From positions 1 to 15,590 of the forward strand of contig JAVCCG010000090.1 of assembly GCA_030765605.1 (NCBI GenBank): 15,590 nt of DNA, read 5' to 3'. The notes beneath the pieces were generated by a model, which worked only from the letters and a program-made list of their open reading frames with translations, did not search any database and had not been told where the DNA came from. Each line of letters begins with the position of its first letter. Position 1 is the stretch's first letter. Positions 3,651 to 9,769 of the stretch are shown piece by piece. The translations under genes were made by a program, and so were the position numbers. The DNA comes from Candidatus Alcyoniella australis. GTDB lineage: Bacteria; Lernaellota; Lernaellaia; JAVCCG01; Alcyoniellaceae.

Positions 3651-4859
3651 ATGACCCTACAGAAGCAGGGCCCGAGGACAATCAGGCTCGATGTGGACGC
3701 CGCGGCGCGGACCATCGGGTTCAATACTGCATCGAGTCCGACCCAGGCGCACTTGCGATTGGCGCGCTACTACTCCTCGCCGCTGTTGATGGGGCCACCG
3801 CGCTCGGAGCTGCTGTTGCAGATGTTGGCGCAGATGTTCGACGAGAACGAGGCCGACCTGGTCCAGCACCTGCCGCCGCTGCGACCGCGCAGCGCACAGA
3901 AGGTCGCGGCCAAGTCCGGCCGTCCGCTGCACGAGGTCGAGGCGCTGCTGGACAGCCTGGCGCTGACCAAAAAAGTGATCCTTGCCGCGGGCAGCCCGCG
4001 CAAATACACGATCCTGCCCATCGTGCCCGGGACCTTTGAGATGGCGCTGATGACCTCCGACATCGGCTCGTACAACTCCTGGCACCAACGATTTGCCGAG
4101 CTATTCGAGGAGCTGTTCGAGACCCGCTACTACGTCGATTACCCAGGCTCGCGCCACTCGTCGCTGGTGCGTTACCTGCCTGTGGGACAGGTGGCGCCCA
4201 GTTTGCGTTCGGCCTGGCCCAGCGACCTGCTCGAACAGGTGCTCGAACCCTTTGACGACTTCGCCGTGGGCCACTGCCAGTGCCGAATCGCAATGCAGCT
4301 GGTGGGCAAGGGCTGCGGCAAGCCTACCGAGAACTGCACGGTGTTCGGCCCGATGGTCAAGCCGATGGTCGAGCGCGGAATGATGCGCCGTATTGACCGC
4401 GACGAGCTGATCTCCATTAAACGCGAGGCCGAGCAGGCAGGCTGCGTAACCTGGATGATGAACTCCGGCGACATTGACAAGGGGAACGGCAGCTGCTCGT
4501 GCTGCGGCTGCTGTTGTCACGCGTTACGCATGGTGCGCGACTTCAACACGCCGGGCCTAATCAGCGTGCCGCACTTCCTGCCCGCGCTCGATGCGCAAAG
4601 CTGCAACTCCTGCGGTTCGTGCGTGCGGATCTGCCCAATGGACGCCTGGACCCTGGCCGACGGCCATCCGCTGTTCGATCGCGCGCGCTGCATCGGCTGC
4701 GGCCTGTGCGTCACCGCCTGCAAGCAAGACGCGCTGCACCTCGAGCCGCTGGACGAGGCCAAGCCGCCCACGGGCTCTTGGAACGGCCTGCTGCTTAAAG
4801 GTCTGCCCAGCTATCTGGGCAACAGCGTGCGCGTCTGGGCCGGACGGCTGTTCGGCTGA
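3651..4859 (+). CDS. Winged-helix/multi-[4Fe-4S] ferredoxin-like protein, paralog 1
   Basis: This 402-residue protein has three recognisable parts. Residues about 77-130 read as a winged-helix fold ending in the conserved YTILPIVPGTFE. The middle carries a four-Cys set (C209, C211, C222, C229 in HCQCR...GCGKPTENC...FGP) and then a six-Cys cluster motif CSCCGCCC (282-289). The C-terminus has two ferredoxin-type [4Fe-4S] sites: C318/C321/C324/C328, and C347/C350/C353/C357 in CIGCGLCVTACK, where Lys replaces the usual Pro. It is probably a cytoplasmic electron carrier or redox-responsive protein; the true partner is unknown. The same architecture is encoded at 8684-9769. ATG 3651 is chosen over ATG 3594 because AAAGGA (3638-3643) sits 7 bases upstream and the extra N-terminus is not shared with the paralog. 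It probably shares a transcript with the hydrolase lipoprotein. Confidence 0.82.
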   Translation: MTLQKQGPRTIRLDVDAAARTIGFNTASSPTQAHLRLARYYSSPLLMGPPRSELLLQMLAQMFDENEADLVQHLPPLRPRSAQKVAAKSGRPLHEVEALLDSLALTKKVILAAGSPRKYTILPIVPGTFEMALMTSDIGSYNSWHQRFAELFEELFETRYYVDYPGSRHSSLVRYLPVGQVAPSLRSAWPSDLLEQVLEPFDDFAVGHCQCRIAMQLVGKGCGKPTENCTVFGPMVKPMVERGMMRRIDRDELISIKREAEQAGCVTWMMNSGDIDKGNGSCSCCGCCCHALRMVRDFNTPGLISVPHFLPALDAQSCNSCGSCVRICPMDAWTLADGHPLFDRARCIGCGLCVTACKQDALHLEPLDEAKPPTGSWNGLLLKGLPSYLGNSVRVWAGRLFG

Positions 4860-4921
4860 GGACTGAATCCCGCAGTGGGCCGTGCTATGCTGCGGCCGAA
4901 CTCAGAACGGGAGAGCGAGCA

Positions 4922-6364
4922 ATGATCGAGCGACTTAGATCCCTATCGATATTTCTGCTGATAATATTGGCCGTCGTCCTGCTGTCGGTTGCCTGCGATG
5001 GCGACGACGATGACGACGATGCGTCCGACGACGATTCGACGGATGACGATGACGAGCAGCCTGTTGACCCCTACCAGGGCATGGCGCCCTCGGGTCCGCC
5101 CCTGGACGATATCCTGGGGATCTCGAGCCACTTAAGCCGCGGCACGGGCTACAGCTGGACCCGCGAGTTCGAGCTCGAGCGCCTAAAACGCGCGGGGGTG
5201 GACATCGTACGCACCGACTTCCACTGGAGAACCATCGAGGCCCAGGACGACGTCTGGTACTTCGACGGCTACGACACGATGGTCGATCTGGTGAACGACA
5301 GCTCGATGCGGGTCAACGCGATTCTCGATTTCGGCGTGGACTGGGCCATGCCCGGCGGCAGCCACAACGAGATCGACCCGGCGAAGTGGGCCGACTACAC
5401 CGGAACCCTGGCCGCGCATTATGCCGATCGCATCGACCTCTACGAGGTCTGGAACGAACAAAACACCGGGCGCTTTTGGAAGCCCGAGCCCAATCCGCAA
5501 CATTATGGACTGCTGCTCGAGGCGGCTTACGACGCGGTACACGAGGCCGACGACTCGGCCACGGTGATCTTCGGCGGCATAGCGGCCTGGATCGACGGTA
5601 CGCTGAGCCCCGACGGGATGTGGGAATTTCTGCTACAGGTCTGGCAGGAACACCCCGATGTCTGCGAGCACTTCGACGCCTTGGCGATTCACCCCTATGC
5701 TTTCTTTCAGCAGTCGCGTCCCGAGCATGAAGTGCCGCTGCTGGGCATCAGCTACCCCAGCCTGCACCGACTGCTGGACCAGGCGTATTGGACCCTCGAT
5801 CGCGTGGGCTGCCCGGACAAGCCGATCTATCTGACCGAAATGGGCTGGCCCGACTACTTCCTGACCAAAGAATGCCAGGCCGCGTATTTGGCGCGCAGCG
5901 TGATGATCAGCGCCAGCCGCGGTGTGGTCGGCTACTACTGGTATACGTTCTGGGACGGCTCGGGCAACTCCGAGCTGATCACCGAGGACTTCTTCGGACT
6001 CTACACCTGGCCCGGCGACGATCCGCAGCCCAAGCCCTCGTACTCCGCGCTGATGGGTCTCCACCAGGCGCTGGGTGATCAAAGCTACGCCGGCGACCTG
6101 GCCGCGGCCCTGGATTGGCCCGAGAACCTCTATGCCCATGCGTTCGCAAACGAGAACGGTCAGTGGGCCGTGGGCCTGTGGCGCTCGGACTTCGACCTGT
6201 TCAAGTCCGAGATCGTCAGCGTGCCACTGCACCCCGACGCGAGCGGAACCTGGTGGCTCTACGACCAGATGGGGAACTTGATCGGCTCGGGCGACGCGTC
6301 CGCAGGGGCAGTCGAGGTCTTAATCAGCGGCGAGGTGAGCTACCTGAAATTCACGGTCGAGTAG
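4922..6364 (+). CDS. Glycoside hydrolase lipoprotein, clan GH-A (GH39/GH5-like), with poly-Asp linker
   Basis: The 480-residue product has a signal anchor ending in the lipobox LSVAC (Cys25). It then has an Asp-dominated stretch (26-45) that probably acts as a flexible acidic spacer from the membrane. The rest is a (beta/alpha)8 hydrolase: VRTDFHWRTIE (96-106), the acid/base Glu179 in YEVWNEQN, HPYAFF near 257, and the nucleophile Glu306 in YLTEMGWPD. This pairing of WNE with TEMGW on strands 4 and 7 is the clan GH-A signature. The FWKPEPNP-x-x-Y segment resembles GH39-like cellulase-fold enzymes. A small beta-rich tail (about 400-480) follows. The likely substrate is a beta-linked polysaccharide, unspecified. 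The ATG has GGGAG (4909-4913) 8 bases upstream; a weak -10-like TATGCT lies at 4886-4891 in the 62-bp gap. The stop codon overlaps a hairpin shared with the next, convergent gene. Confidence 0.83.
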   Translation: MIERLRSLSIFLLIILAVVLLSVACDGDDDDDDASDDDSTDDDDEQPVDPYQGMAPSGPPLDDILGISSHLSRGTGYSWTREFELERLKRAGVDIVRTDFHWRTIEAQDDVWYFDGYDTMVDLVNDSSMRVNAILDFGVDWAMPGGSHNEIDPAKWADYTGTLAAHYADRIDLYEVWNEQNTGRFWKPEPNPQHYGLLLEAAYDAVHEADDSATVIFGGIAAWIDGTLSPDGMWEFLLQVWQEHPDVCEHFDALAIHPYAFFQQSRPEHEVPLLGISYPSLHRLLDQAYWTLDRVGCPDKPIYLTEMGWPDYFLTKECQAAYLARSVMISASRGVVGYYWYTFWDGSGNSELITEDFFGLYTWPGDDPQPKPSYSALMGLHQALGDQSYAGDLAAALDWPENLYAHAFANENGQWAVGLWRSDFDLFKSEIVSVPLHPDASGTWWLYDQMGNLIGSGDASAGAVEVLISGEVSYLKFTVE

Positions 6365-6401
6365 CGGCACCTTTTAGGTGGCTCGAAGCCGCCTACCCTA
6401 C
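6361..6401. repeat. Facing hairpins at the 28-bp convergent junction (REP-like, degenerate copies)
   Basis: On the plus strand GTAG (6361-6364, containing the glycosidase stop) is followed by CGGCACCT-TTT-AGGTGGC, a degenerate form of the GGGCACCT-TTG-AGGTGCCC hairpin found after the TonB receptor and after carB. Overlapping it is AGGTGGCT-CGA-AGCCGCCT (6376-6394), an 8-bp stem with one G-U pair in the plus-strand RNA. On the minus strand this second hairpin is preceded by GTAGGGTAGG, which includes the stop of the dehydratase gene. There is no T-tract on either side, so intrinsic termination is not well supported. Confidence 0.45.
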
Positions 6402-7805
6402 GAGCTCGGCGCGTTTTCGCGGGCGTCTGGTGCGGGACGAGTCGTCCTGCAGCACGTTGCGCACGAAGCTCTGGATCTCGTCCTGGACCACGCCGATGGG
6501 GGTCATGCGTCTGATCCAGGAGTCGGTCTGCAAAACCAGCAGCGGGATTCCCGCGCGACGCATCAGCTCCTTGCGTAAAATCTCGACCACGCTCCAGGTC
6601 TGTTTACAGGCGTGGTGTCCGCAGTAGATCACCGAATCCGCGCCCAGGTCGTGCACCGCGTGCAGCACGTCCTCGACCCAACACTGGGACATCGATGACC
6701 CACCCATCTGCCTGGTCATCGGCATGTTGGAGGCCTCGAGGGCCATGCCGCGCACCATTGAGTCCAGCGACGTGGTGTCGATCGGCTGCGGACAGAACAG
6801 GTCGAGGATATCGCCCATGTGGCTAATCCCCTGCTCCTCGGACCAGTTGAACAGTCCGGAGAAGTCAAAGTAGATGCTGGTGTAGCCCCACAGACAGCGC
6901 GCCCGTTCGCGCTTGGCCGGGTACTCGCCGCGCCTCAGCCGATCCTTGGCCACGTCAACGAGTTTTTGCAGCATCTCGATCCCCTGGTCCGTGCCCCAGG
7001 TGCTGAAGCGCACGCCGTAAATCAGCATTGAGAACAGGTTGGGCACAGGCGAAGGCCGGGCCTTGCGCAGTTCCCACAGCTCCCAGTACAGCTCGGTGCA
7101 GCGGTTGGAGCGCTGCACCACCGGCCGCAGCATCTCCTCGGTCAGCTTCCGGCCGCACAGGTTCTCAAGTCCCCTGATCAGCGAGCGATAGTTCGCCACG
7201 TACAGCTCGCGTCCGCGCGGAGTATCGTCCACCGGCTTTTCCAAGATCAGCTGCGGGATATCCAACTGCACTGACACGAACTCGTGGATCTTGGCGTTGG
7301 CGTCGCAGCCGCCGGGTCCGGCTGAGATCAACGCGTCGGGCCGCAGTGACGCGCCGGAGAGCAGCGAGCCCAGCTCGATGCTGCTCGAGCTGCAGATGTG
7401 GTCGGGCAGACCCAGGCCGATGGCCGCGTCAAAGTAGCGTTCGCCCTGCCCCTCGAGGCCGACCACGCCGATGGTGGTCAGCAGCTCGCAGGTCAGCACC
7501 CGGGCATTGTCAAAGACTGTAACCAGCTCCGGCGGGAAGTTAAATGGCGCCAGAATCACGTACTCATCGCCCTGTGACGCGCGCCGCGCGTCGATCAGCC
7601 AACGGCCGATCATCTTCAAAAACGGGATGCTCGCCTCGCGTACGTGCGGCGCGAGGAATGCGCCCAAGCCGGCGGCCGGATCGCGCGGCAGCAGGCTCAG
7701 CAGCCCCTCGAGCTCCTCGTCGCTGATCGAATCGCCGATGCGTAGCGTCAGGCCGAACAGATCGGACGCGCGCTCGAACAGCCCGGTGCTATACGGATCG
7801 TTCAT
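6393..7805 (-). CDS. 2-hydroxyacyl-CoA dehydratase-family subunit (HgdB/BcrB/C-like)
   Basis: The 470-residue product has the layout of the dehydratase D-component family (PF06050), which performs radical dehydration or reduction of acyl-CoA thioesters with a [4Fe-4S] cluster per subunit. Cysteines in the expected contexts are C138 (LPDHICSSSS), C167 (GPGGCDAN) and C400 (YCGHHACKQTW); the last is followed by the family-typical EILRKELMRRAGIPLLVLQTD. C395 adds a further potential ligand. The usual second subunit and the ASKHA activator ATPase are absent from the window, so the substrate and even dehydratase activity are uncertain. A double-cubane-type reductase is an alternative. The ATG at 7805 lacks a good ribosome site. 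TTG at 7829 overlaps the stop of the upstream TPR gene (TTGA) and could give translational coupling. Either way the two genes form one operon. Confidence 0.75.
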   Translation of the reverse strand: MNDPYSTGLFERASDLFGLTLRIGDSISDEELEGLLSLLPRDPAAGLGAFLAPHVREASIPFLKMIGRWLIDARRASQGDEYVILAPFNFPPELVTVFDNARVLTCELLTTIGVVGLEGQGERYFDAAIGLGLPDHICSSSSIELGSLLSGASLRPDALISAGPGGCDANAKIHEFVSVQLDIPQLILEKPVDDTPRGRELYVANYRSLIRGLENLCGRKLTEEMLRPVVQRSNRCTELYWELWELRKARPSPVPNLFSMLIYGVRFSTWGTDQGIEMLQKLVDVAKDRLRRGEYPAKRERARCLWGYTSIYFDFSGLFNWSEEQGISHMGDILDLFCPQPIDTTSLDSMVRGMALEASNMPMTRQMGGSSMSQCWVEDVLHAVHDLGADSVIYCGHHACKQTWSVVEILRKELMRRAGIPLLVLQTDSWIRRMTPIGVVQDEIQSFVRNVLQDDSSRTRRPRKRAELVG

Positions 7806-7825
7806 CGACTGAGATTGAGCGACCG

Positions 7826-8560
7826 TCAATCTTTGATCTGCGGCTCGAGCGCCTTGGTCTTGCCGATATAGAAGCGGTCCTCCCACAGCGCCTGTGGGTC
7901 GGGGCTCATCGCCACGGTCTTGTTATAGATCGCTCGCGCCTTGCCCCACTGTTCCTCTTCGATGTAGAGCTCGAGCAGGTAGAAATTGGTGCGCGGGATG
8001 CTCTGCGACTTGAGAAAATTCTCCTCAGCCTTTTCCGGATCGTACTTCGGCCAGGGCAGGCTCTGGTAGTAGCGCCCCATGGCGCGGTACGGGCCGCCGC
8101 GGTCGAAATCGCCGTTGATCGCGATGGCGCGGTTGCACGACTGCTCGTAATTTTTGCCCAGTCCCTGAGTCAAGGCGCGCAGGATGCCGATCCCCTTGCC
8201 CTTCTCTCCAAGACAGATGCACTTGTAGTAGTGCCCCTCAACGCCGCCGGGATTGAGCGCCGCGGCCTTTGTGCCCCAGTCCTCGCCGATCTGGCCCCAC
8301 TGCTTGTCGACCTGCTTATCCTCGGTGCGGTCGCAGACCCAGAAAGCCGCGCGCGATGCGCGCCACGCCGCGTCGTACGATCCGTCGACGTCGAACGCCG
8401 ATTGGGACATCCCGAACATCTTCTTTCCGCTGTCCATGCTGCCGATGCGGTCAACCCACAGTTGGTCGACCGTTGCCAATATCGACGCCGCGTCCTGAGA
8501 AACCACGGCCGCGGAAGTAAGCAGCACTGCGACCGCCAGAATGATCATCAGCTTGCGCAT
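7826..8560 (-). CDS. Exported TPR-like protein of unknown function
   Basis: The 244-residue product begins MRKLMIILAVAVLLTSAAVVS, a Sec signal peptide without lipobox, so it is probably periplasmic. The rest is predicted helical. ALNPGGVEGHYYKCICLGEKG, a following block of the type AIAINGDFDRGGPYRAMGRYY, then DPEKAEENFLKSQ and EQWGKARAIYNKTVAMSPDP look like degenerate tetratricopeptide repeats. The spacing recalls periplasmic TPR proteins loosely related to the TRAP-transporter TatT component, but no transporter gene is adjacent and I do not assign that role. ATG 8560 is chosen over the one at 8590 because a purine-rich GGGGGGAAG lies just upstream and the signal peptide then begins properly with MRK. 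It is the first gene of a two-gene operon with the dehydratase-like protein, 20 bp apart or overlapping. Confidence 0.7.
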   Translation of the reverse strand: MRKLMIILAVAVLLTSAAVVSQDAASILATVDQLWVDRIGSMDSGKKMFGMSQSAFDVDGSYDAAWRASRAAFWVCDRTEDKQVDKQWGQIGEDWGTKAAALNPGGVEGHYYKCICLGEKGKGIGILRALTQGLGKNYEQSCNRAIAINGDFDRGGPYRAMGRYYQSLPWPKYDPEKAEENFLKSQSIPRTNFYLLELYIEEEQWGKARAIYNKTVAMSPDPQALWEDRFYIGKTKALEPQIKD

Positions 8561-8683
8561 CGGTCTTCCCCCCATGTTCAATACATTCATCCGATAATTT
8601 TATCACAGCACGAATACGATTTGGCAGCCCGCGTGCAGTGCGGCGAGAGCTGGGTTAGAATCCCGCGAAATAATCGGAGAACA
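8561..8683. promoter_or_regulatory. Divergent intergenic region with possible back-to-back promoters
   Basis: This 123-bp stretch separates the TPR/dehydratase operon (-) from wHTH-FeS paralog 2 (+). It holds an AT-rich island unlike the flanking GC-rich DNA. On the minus strand TAAAAT (8602-8597) could be a -10 box, with only a weak CTGCCA 19 bases upstream. On the plus strand TAGAAT (8656-8661) could be a -10 box with no clear -35. Because paralog 2 carries a winged-helix-like domain, regulation of this shared region by its product is possible but purely inferred. Confidence 0.3.
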
Positions 8684-9769
8684 ATGATGGACGTTTACGA
8701 ACAACTACGGCAGGTGCTCGACGCCCACCCCTCCAGCGCACCGAGTTCTCCGGCTTTCGACGAGATCCTGCGCATTCTGTTCAGCGAGGACGAGGCCGCC
8801 CTGGCCGCGGCCATGAGCTTTCGGCCCCAGCCAGTGGAAAAAATTGCCACGGCCGCGCAGCTCGATCCGGACACTACCGGCCAGATGCTCGAACGCCTGG
8901 CCGACCGGGCGCTGGTTTTTTGCCGCCGCAAGGAAGGCCGCGCGCTATACGGTCTGCTGCCAACGATCCCCGGGCTGTTCGAGTTCCCGTTCATGCGCGG
9001 TAAAAATACGCCCGAGCTCGAACGGCTGGCCGAGCTGTGGGAACGCTACCACCACGACGGGTTGGGCGACCAGTTCTGCGGCAATCCTACTCCGCCGATG
9101 CGAGTGGTGCCCGTCGAGAAATCGGTAAACGCCGAGCTGCACGTGCACCCCTACGAGGTGGTGGCCAATCTGGTGCGCGGCGCGGATTACATCGCGCTTA
9201 CCAAATGCGCCTGCCGCGTAAGCGTGGCCAAGTGCGAGCGCCCGCTGGAGGTCTGCATTATCTTCGGCCCGCCGGCCGAGTTCCTGGTCGAACGCGGCTA
9301 CGCGCGCCATGTTGACCACGACGAGGCGCTGCGCGCCCTGGAGCTGTCCGAGGCCGCGGGCCTGGTGCACACCAGCAACAACAGCGCCGACCGCGCCAAC
9401 CTGATCTGCAACTGCTGTTCGTGCTGCTGTACGGTGCTGCGCGGCCTGACCCAGGTGGGCAATCCTCACGCCATCGCCACCAGCGCATTTGTCGCCGCAA
9501 TCGACGCGCAAGCCTGCACCGGCTGCGCTGTTTGCGCGGACGACCGCTGCCCGATCGAGGCGATCGTTGTAACCGACGGCACGGCGTTGGTCGACGCCGA
9601 GCGCTGCATCGGCTGCGGCCTGTGCGTCTCGACCTGTCCGGCAAATGCGATCCGCCTGCGCGAGCGCGAGCAGCGTCCGGCGATCTGCGAAACGGTGCAA
9701 CAGATGGGCCTGCAGATGGCCCAGGAAAAAGGTCGGCTGGAACGATTGATCGAGATCATGTCGCGCTGA
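8684..9769 (+). CDS. Winged-helix/multi-[4Fe-4S] ferredoxin-like protein, paralog 2
   Basis: The 361-residue product mirrors paralog 1 at 3651-4859. It has a winged-helix-like region at about 46-100 (VEKIATAAQLD... ending LYGLLPTIPGLFEF), a four-Cys set C175/C177/C184/C191 (KCACR...KCERPLEVC..FGP), the six-Cys motif CNCCSCCC (242-249), and two C-terminal [4Fe-4S] sites. The first of these, CTGCAVCADDRCP (C278, C281, C284, C289), has one residue more than usual before the last Cys. The second, CIGCGLCVSTCP (C308, C311, C314, C318), is canonical. LVERGYARHVDHDEA (201-215) matches MVERGMMRRIDRDEL in paralog 1. The protein is likely cytoplasmic, an electron carrier or redox sensor. The start is ATG 8684 or 8687 (MMDVYEQ); GGAG at 8676-8679 is better spaced for 8687. 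The long upstream open frame overlaps the TPR gene and is not credible. Confidence 0.82.
   Translation: MMDVYEQLRQVLDAHPSSAPSSPAFDEILRILFSEDEAALAAAMSFRPQPVEKIATAAQLDPDTTGQMLERLADRALVFCRRKEGRALYGLLPTIPGLFEFPFMRGKNTPELERLAELWERYHHDGLGDQFCGNPTPPMRVVPVEKSVNAELHVHPYEVVANLVRGADYIALTKCACRVSVAKCERPLEVCIIFGPPAEFLVERGYARHVDHDEALRALELSEAAGLVHTSNNSADRANLICNCCSCCCTVLRGLTQVGNPHAIATSAFVAAIDAQACTGCAVCADDRCPIEAIVVTDGTALVDAERCIGCGLCVSTCPANAIRLREREQRPAICETVQQMGLQMAQEKGRLERLIEIMSR

Follow-up and report, generated by a model that had tools for sequence, protein, structure and literature searches.

Two cysteine-rich ferredoxin proteins of Candidatus Alcyoniella australis share a winged-helix-like and cysteine module with the putative isoprene reductase IsrA

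We analysed a stretch of 15,590 nucleotides (hereafter the window) from Candidatus Alcyoniella australis, which carries two genes, P0001 and P0002, of similar architecture. The features discussed below are the following, in positions of the window except for the last line, which refers to another contig of the same genome.

3651..4859, plus strand: P0001, 402 aa; winged-helix-like N-terminus, four-cysteine set, CSCCGCCC and 2[4Fe-4S] ferredoxin domain
4275..4337, plus strand: first cysteine set of P0001, C209-x-C211-R...C222...C229
4494..4517, plus strand: CSCCGCCC of P0001, cysteines 282, 284, 285, 287, 288 and 289
4602..4721, plus strand: two Fer4 sites of P0001, cysteines 318-328 and 347-357 (eight Fer4 cysteines)
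6393..7805, minus strand: P0003, HGD-D family (PF06050, E 6e-50); a neighbour, not a conserved partner
7826..8560, minus strand: P0004, exported protein or lipoprotein, weakly matching TPR; precedes P0003 in the divergent operon
8684..9769, plus strand: P0002, 361 aa; architecture as in P0001; AlphaFold2 pLDDT 94.1, pTM 0.90
8750..8956, plus strand: predicted winged helix of P0002, residues 23-91 (AlphaFold2 secondary structure; Foldseek)
9206..9256, plus strand: first cysteine set of P0002, C175-x-C177-R...C184...C191
9407..9430, plus strand: CNCCSCCC of P0002, cysteines 242, 244, 245, 247, 248 and 249
9515..9637, plus strand: two Fer4 sites of P0002, cysteines 278-289 and 308-318 (eight Fer4 cysteines)
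Contig C126 (L129), ~4557-6700, minus strand: operon of the third family copy, which is the last gene after hypA-hypB

Both reading frames are open over these coordinates, with a possible alternative start for P0001 at 3594. The two products are homologous (104 identities over 321 aligned positions, 32%, E 9e-41) and contain the cysteine sets that the original prediction had described for the pair. The same prediction had called the two copies unlinked, a loose description: only 3.8 kb separates them, and at least two further genomes (L045, L057) carry a P0001-type and a P0002-type gene on a single contig. Directly downstream of P0001 lies a gene (4922-6364) for a lipoprotein with an Asp-rich linker and a weak glycosyl-hydrolase match.

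The cysteines follow the same order in P0001 and P0002: C-x-C-R...C...C, then C-x-C-C-x-C-C-C, then two [4Fe-4S] sites, the first of which has one extra residue in P0002 (C284-C289). Shuffling of each protein gave an expected number of chance CxCCxCCC motifs of about 4e-6 for P0001 and 1e-5 for P0002. All 18 cysteines were invariant or at least 90% conserved in an alignment of 29 rows, the most distant of which is 26% identical to P0002; seven of the ten module cysteines were invariant, the remaining three were conserved at 90% or more, and Asn233 was also invariant. The Fer4 sites passed the curated cut-off (Fer4_6, 45.1 and 38.1 bits versus 25), and no Pfam or NCBIfam model scored above cut-off outside the ferredoxin sites of the two proteins. 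PDB sequence matches were likewise centred on the Fer4 part, leaving the winged helix and the four-cysteine set uncovered, and the likeness to clostridial 2[4Fe-4S] ferredoxins and to Fer4 domains of the HdrA, FwdF and RnfB type was confined to the C-terminal ferredoxin domain. The four-cysteine set, the dense six-cysteine motif and the two C-terminal [4Fe-4S] sites are all present and conserved in relatives, and up to four metal or cluster sites, as had been proposed, can be predicted from the sequences. We also considered membership in the double-cubane [8Fe-9S] proteins, but neither P0001 nor P0002 matched HGD-D, the fold carrying that cluster.

We then looked at the distribution of the family. 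It was found in 36 of 290 sampled genomes (E < 1e-40), one genome containing 13 copies (E < 1e-25). Scanning some 85,000 species genomes with a single motif yielded at least 540 relatives, in bacteria and Asgard archaea; a scan of viral contigs with P0002 returned none. Gene neighbourhoods were analysed at 80 loci kept from these relatives, a sample drawn with a narrower alignment and biased to members with ICNCCxCC. These loci came from Desulfobacterota, Chloroflexota, Spirochaetota, Bacillota, Bacteroidota, Poribacteria, Nitrospinota, Lokiarchaeota and others. The genome of Ca. A. australis itself encodes three full copies, namely P0001, P0002 and the one on contig C126, together with a protein with a reduced module on contig C124 (L128:2420-3244), which has CAC...C and then CHCSSATC, the latter replacing CxCCxCCC. 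The literature was searched for the CxCCxCCC-type motif in several spellings, which returned only unrelated papers on DNA sequences, and for winged helix, ferredoxin and dehydratase combined, which returned nothing. The earlier statement that no characterised member is known still holds: none was found, and the family is also devoid of a curated model. In Cetobacterium somerae (L146, NZ_CP092520.1, 4974-11119) a family member immediately precedes a Pel-type polysaccharide cluster with genes for polygalactosaminidase, DUF2194 and PelF. A general link of the family to Pel polysaccharide genes was discarded, as these were absent near the other loci examined.

The fold of P0002 was modelled with AlphaFold2 on the 29-row alignment. 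A winged helix had been suspected at the N-terminus, and the model predicts one with high confidence (pLDDT 94): Foldseek matched the N-terminus to ArsR/MarR-type winged helices with a probability of 1.00, and the C-terminus to ferredoxins. Matches of the full model were dominated by Fer4. When the cysteine module was modelled alone (P0002 residues 96-262, pLDDT 85), Foldseek returned no match with E < 1, and the best VIA Z score was 3.0. The isolated module, as modelled, has no recognised known fold, which does not by itself prove a new one. The four- plus six-cysteine module and the ferredoxin domain are also found behind different N-termini, or with hardly any N-terminal part (L130-L139); this comparison of sequences marks the winged helix as an accessory part and the redox core as the conserved one.

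To look for distant relatives, we used a profile built from the winged-helix and cysteine module alone, with the Fer4 part removed and the database size set to 1e6. It matched an 899-aa protein of Desulfoluna limicola (L052:1153-3849; model positions 27-256, E 3e-47) and a 925-aa protein encoded on a Subdoligranulum plasmid (L145:4932-7706; model positions 30-256, E 4e-35), which are 49% identical to each other. Beyond the module, the Desulfoluna protein contains Fer4, Fer4_20 and Pyr_redox_2 domains, which is the published layout of IsrA. IsrA is a putative isoprene reductase of 901 aa from Acetobacterium wieringae ISORED-2, with 'clade 9' homologues; the assignment is putative and is supported by induction in proteomics (PMC10134865). 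Its 'cluster V' involves six cysteines including Cys180-x-Cys182 and Cys254-x-Cys256, 74 residues apart, the ferredoxin cysteines beginning at 289; the substrate tunnel ends at this cluster, where nickel has been proposed (PMC10134865). In both the Desulfoluna and the Subdoligranulum protein, 74 residues separate the first from the second CxC and 35 the second CxC from the Fer4 part, and in the alignment the two CxC motifs fall on C175/C177 and C242/C244 of P0002. IsrA was compared through its published layout and spacing, the profile matches being to the two IsrA-type proteins. The winged-helix and cysteine module of P0001 and P0002 is therefore homologous to the N-terminus of IsrA-type proteins (about residues 1-270 of IsrA), with which it shares the winged-helix-like part, the paired CxC and a ferredoxin site about 35 residues past the second CxC.

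The two kinds of protein nevertheless differ in two respects. IsrA-type proteins have an Nfn-like FAD/NAD(P)H domain after the ferredoxin, whereas P0001 and P0002 stop after the 2[4Fe-4S] part, for which reason we do not count these two among the IsrA members. The cysteine site is not identical either, because C-x-C-x4-C (Subdoligranulum) or CNCCGCGC (Desulfoluna) replaces CxCCxCCC; the Subdoligranulum spacing is also that of the reduced module on contig C124. The module has ten cysteines in P0001 and P0002, compared with six to nine in the reduced and IsrA-type versions observed. We also searched 280 sampled genomes at E 1e-200 for close IsrA-type proteins; this search, run without a positive control, found none.

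A stand-alone relative may already be on record. The isr operon encodes a '4Fe-4S ferredoxin' with no family affiliation, the first ~270 residues of which align with IsrA (PMC10134865). By description this protein (VUZ27135.1, 350 aa, ENOG4105DQ9) is close to P0002 in length, with an IsrA-alignable N-terminus and a ferredoxin-type C-terminus in which the paper infers one [4Fe-4S] cluster (PMC10134865). Judged by that published description, it probably belongs to the same family as P0002. In two related genomes, the core ferredoxin without the winged helix seems to share an operon with a CrtI-like FAD oxidoreductase (L045:4474-6882, L046:4220-6625). This arrangement, the sole case of its kind, fits a split form of the IsrA fusion.

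Genes for the nickel chaperones HypA and HypB were found near a part of the family. hypB was present at 10 of the 80 loci and hypA at 6, while about 0.3-0.9 hypB genes would be expected in the 1.15 Mb covered if a 4-Mb genome carries one to three of them. Both tallies ranked HypB first among the neighbour families; around the P0002 clade, HypA came second. The hypAB loci came largely from that one clade; cases outside it are in Poribacteria (L065), in Nitrospinota (L066) and at the C126 copy of Ca. A. australis. On C126 hypA is followed by hypB and then by the family gene, with a stop-start overlap, and this operon is separate from contig C95, where the [NiFe]-hydrogenase and another hypA lie. 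Neither P0001 nor P0002 adjoins hypA, hypB or a flavoprotein gene. The chaperone genes are also associated with IsrA-type genes: hypB, the IsrA-like 925-aa gene and hypA are consecutive on the Subdoligranulum plasmid (OY725877.1, 4355-8058), and hypA lies near the IsrA-type gene of Desulfoluna. The gene table of the plasmid lists no gene in that interval. For the orthologous group of the isr ferredoxin, Kronen et al. reported no association with HypA/HypB (PMC10134865). In some clades HypA and HypB probably load nickel into the cysteine module.

The winged helix had raised the possibility of a DNA-binding redox sensor, that is, a redox- or iron-sensing transcriptional regulator with a DNA-binding winged helix and clusters that respond to the redox state. 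The ArsR/MarR-type matches at full Foldseek probability agree with such a role, as does the observation that most family members are monocistronic or found in varied gene contexts. P0002 shares its predicted N-terminal fold with ArsR, MarR and TrmB regulators but scores below every curated cut-off; the helix-turn-helix models that fell short include TrmB for P0001 (12.5 bits versus 25.6) and DUF7342 and DprA_WH for P0002. Close upstream of each of the two divergent genes, an imperfect 11-nt inverted repeat with one mismatch brackets the promoter region (8590-8600 / 8668-8678); by our estimate it is within chance for 161 bases, and it may include ribosome-binding sequence. The presumed recognition helix (residues 61-75) had a mean net charge of -1.0 over 29 relatives, position 70 was acidic in 22 of the 29, and no conserved basic face was seen, these figures having no control on true regulators. 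In addition, the winged helix also forms the N-terminus of IsrA-type NAD(P)H/FAD enzymes, and the cysteine module exists without any winged helix. We favour a redox protein over a regulator because the winged helix occurs inside an enzyme and the presumed recognition helix leans acidic. This evidence amounts to a lean and not a proof, and we regard a regulatory function as quite unlikely.

A second proposal was that the protein is a dedicated low-potential electron donor to the adjacent P0003, which is similar to 2-hydroxyacyl-CoA dehydratases. P0002 does diverge from an operon consisting of P0004 and then the HGD-D gene P0003, as had been noted, and at the genome level the family and HGD-D co-occur (23 of 36 genomes with the family versus 71 of 254 others, Fisher p 4e-5), also among POR-positive genomes (p 2e-4), kinship being ignored in both tests. 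Both are traits of anaerobes, however, so that this co-occurrence may merely reflect shared lifestyle and kinship. HGD-D genes were found near just 2 of the 80 family loci, and G006, the closest genome with orthologues (55% and 59% identical), has neither an HGD-D nor a TPR gene nearby, including at its 55%-identical orthologue. HGD-D dehydratases normally receive their electrons via an ATP-dependent activator. These observations do not support the proposal, which we consider very improbable. The hypA-hypB-family operons of Ca. A. australis and several other genomes, together with ten cysteines and a CxCCxCCC that looks exposed, could instead point to a cofactor scaffold or a nickel or Fe-S insertion factor that acts with HypA/HypB and passes a cluster to a client enzyme. 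Most members, including P0001 and P0002, are nevertheless away from hypAB, and in Subdoligranulum the chaperone genes flank the IsrA-like enzyme itself, which suggests that the cysteine module is the client. Two permanent ferredoxin clusters would also be unusual in a scaffold. We give this explanation little weight, about as little as the regulator.

Taken together, these results make it rather probable that P0001 and P0002 belong to a large IsrA-module family of anaerobic redox proteins and are not regulators, and the redox role in anaerobes contained in the original prediction is supported. The family is best described as a stand-alone version of the cluster-V module of IsrA that is enriched in cysteines, and a P0001/P0002-type protein is perhaps a flavin-less reductase. 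As to cluster types, metals, electron direction and catalysis, we infer the following scheme. Electrons from a separate flavoprotein or ferredoxin would enter the C-terminal 2[4Fe-4S] domain and move on to the cysteine module, which would bind an equivalent of cluster V through the paired CxC motifs together with further ligands. Ten module cysteines may hold a larger cluster or one more [4Fe-4S]; judging from the alignments, the extra cysteines 245, 247 and 248, missing in the Subdoligranulum IsrA-type site, could ligate it. A substrate or partner would then be reduced at the module, the substrate bond in IsrA being a conjugated C=C, and the winged helix would act as a structural or docking domain, not as a DNA reader. 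That the cysteine module itself is the catalytic site is a tentative suggestion, which we think somewhat unlikely. The stand-alone proteins have no FAD domain and no partner enzyme recurs at family loci, both of which speak against the explanation as a whole, as do the putative status of IsrA, the cysteine site that differs from that of IsrA-type proteins and the position of P0001 and P0002 away from hypAB. A bolder and still less likely version is that the ten-cysteine module holds an Fe-S or Ni-Fe-S cluster of an undescribed kind, within a fold for which no solved relative is recognised, the family consisting of widespread flavin-less reductases, some of them matured by HypA/HypB, that act on unactivated C=C bonds and have diversified by paralogy like the reductive dehalogenases.

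An extreme and conserved cysteine motif is thus present at no fewer than 540 loci of anaerobic bacteria and Asgard archaea, and no curated model or paper that we found describes it. What is new here is that the family bearing this motif is tied to the proposed active site of the putative isoprene reductase. This tie, and the occurrence of nickel chaperone genes apart from hydrogenase genes, make two questions testable: which metal is present in cluster V of IsrA, and which anaerobes hydrogenate unactivated alkenes.
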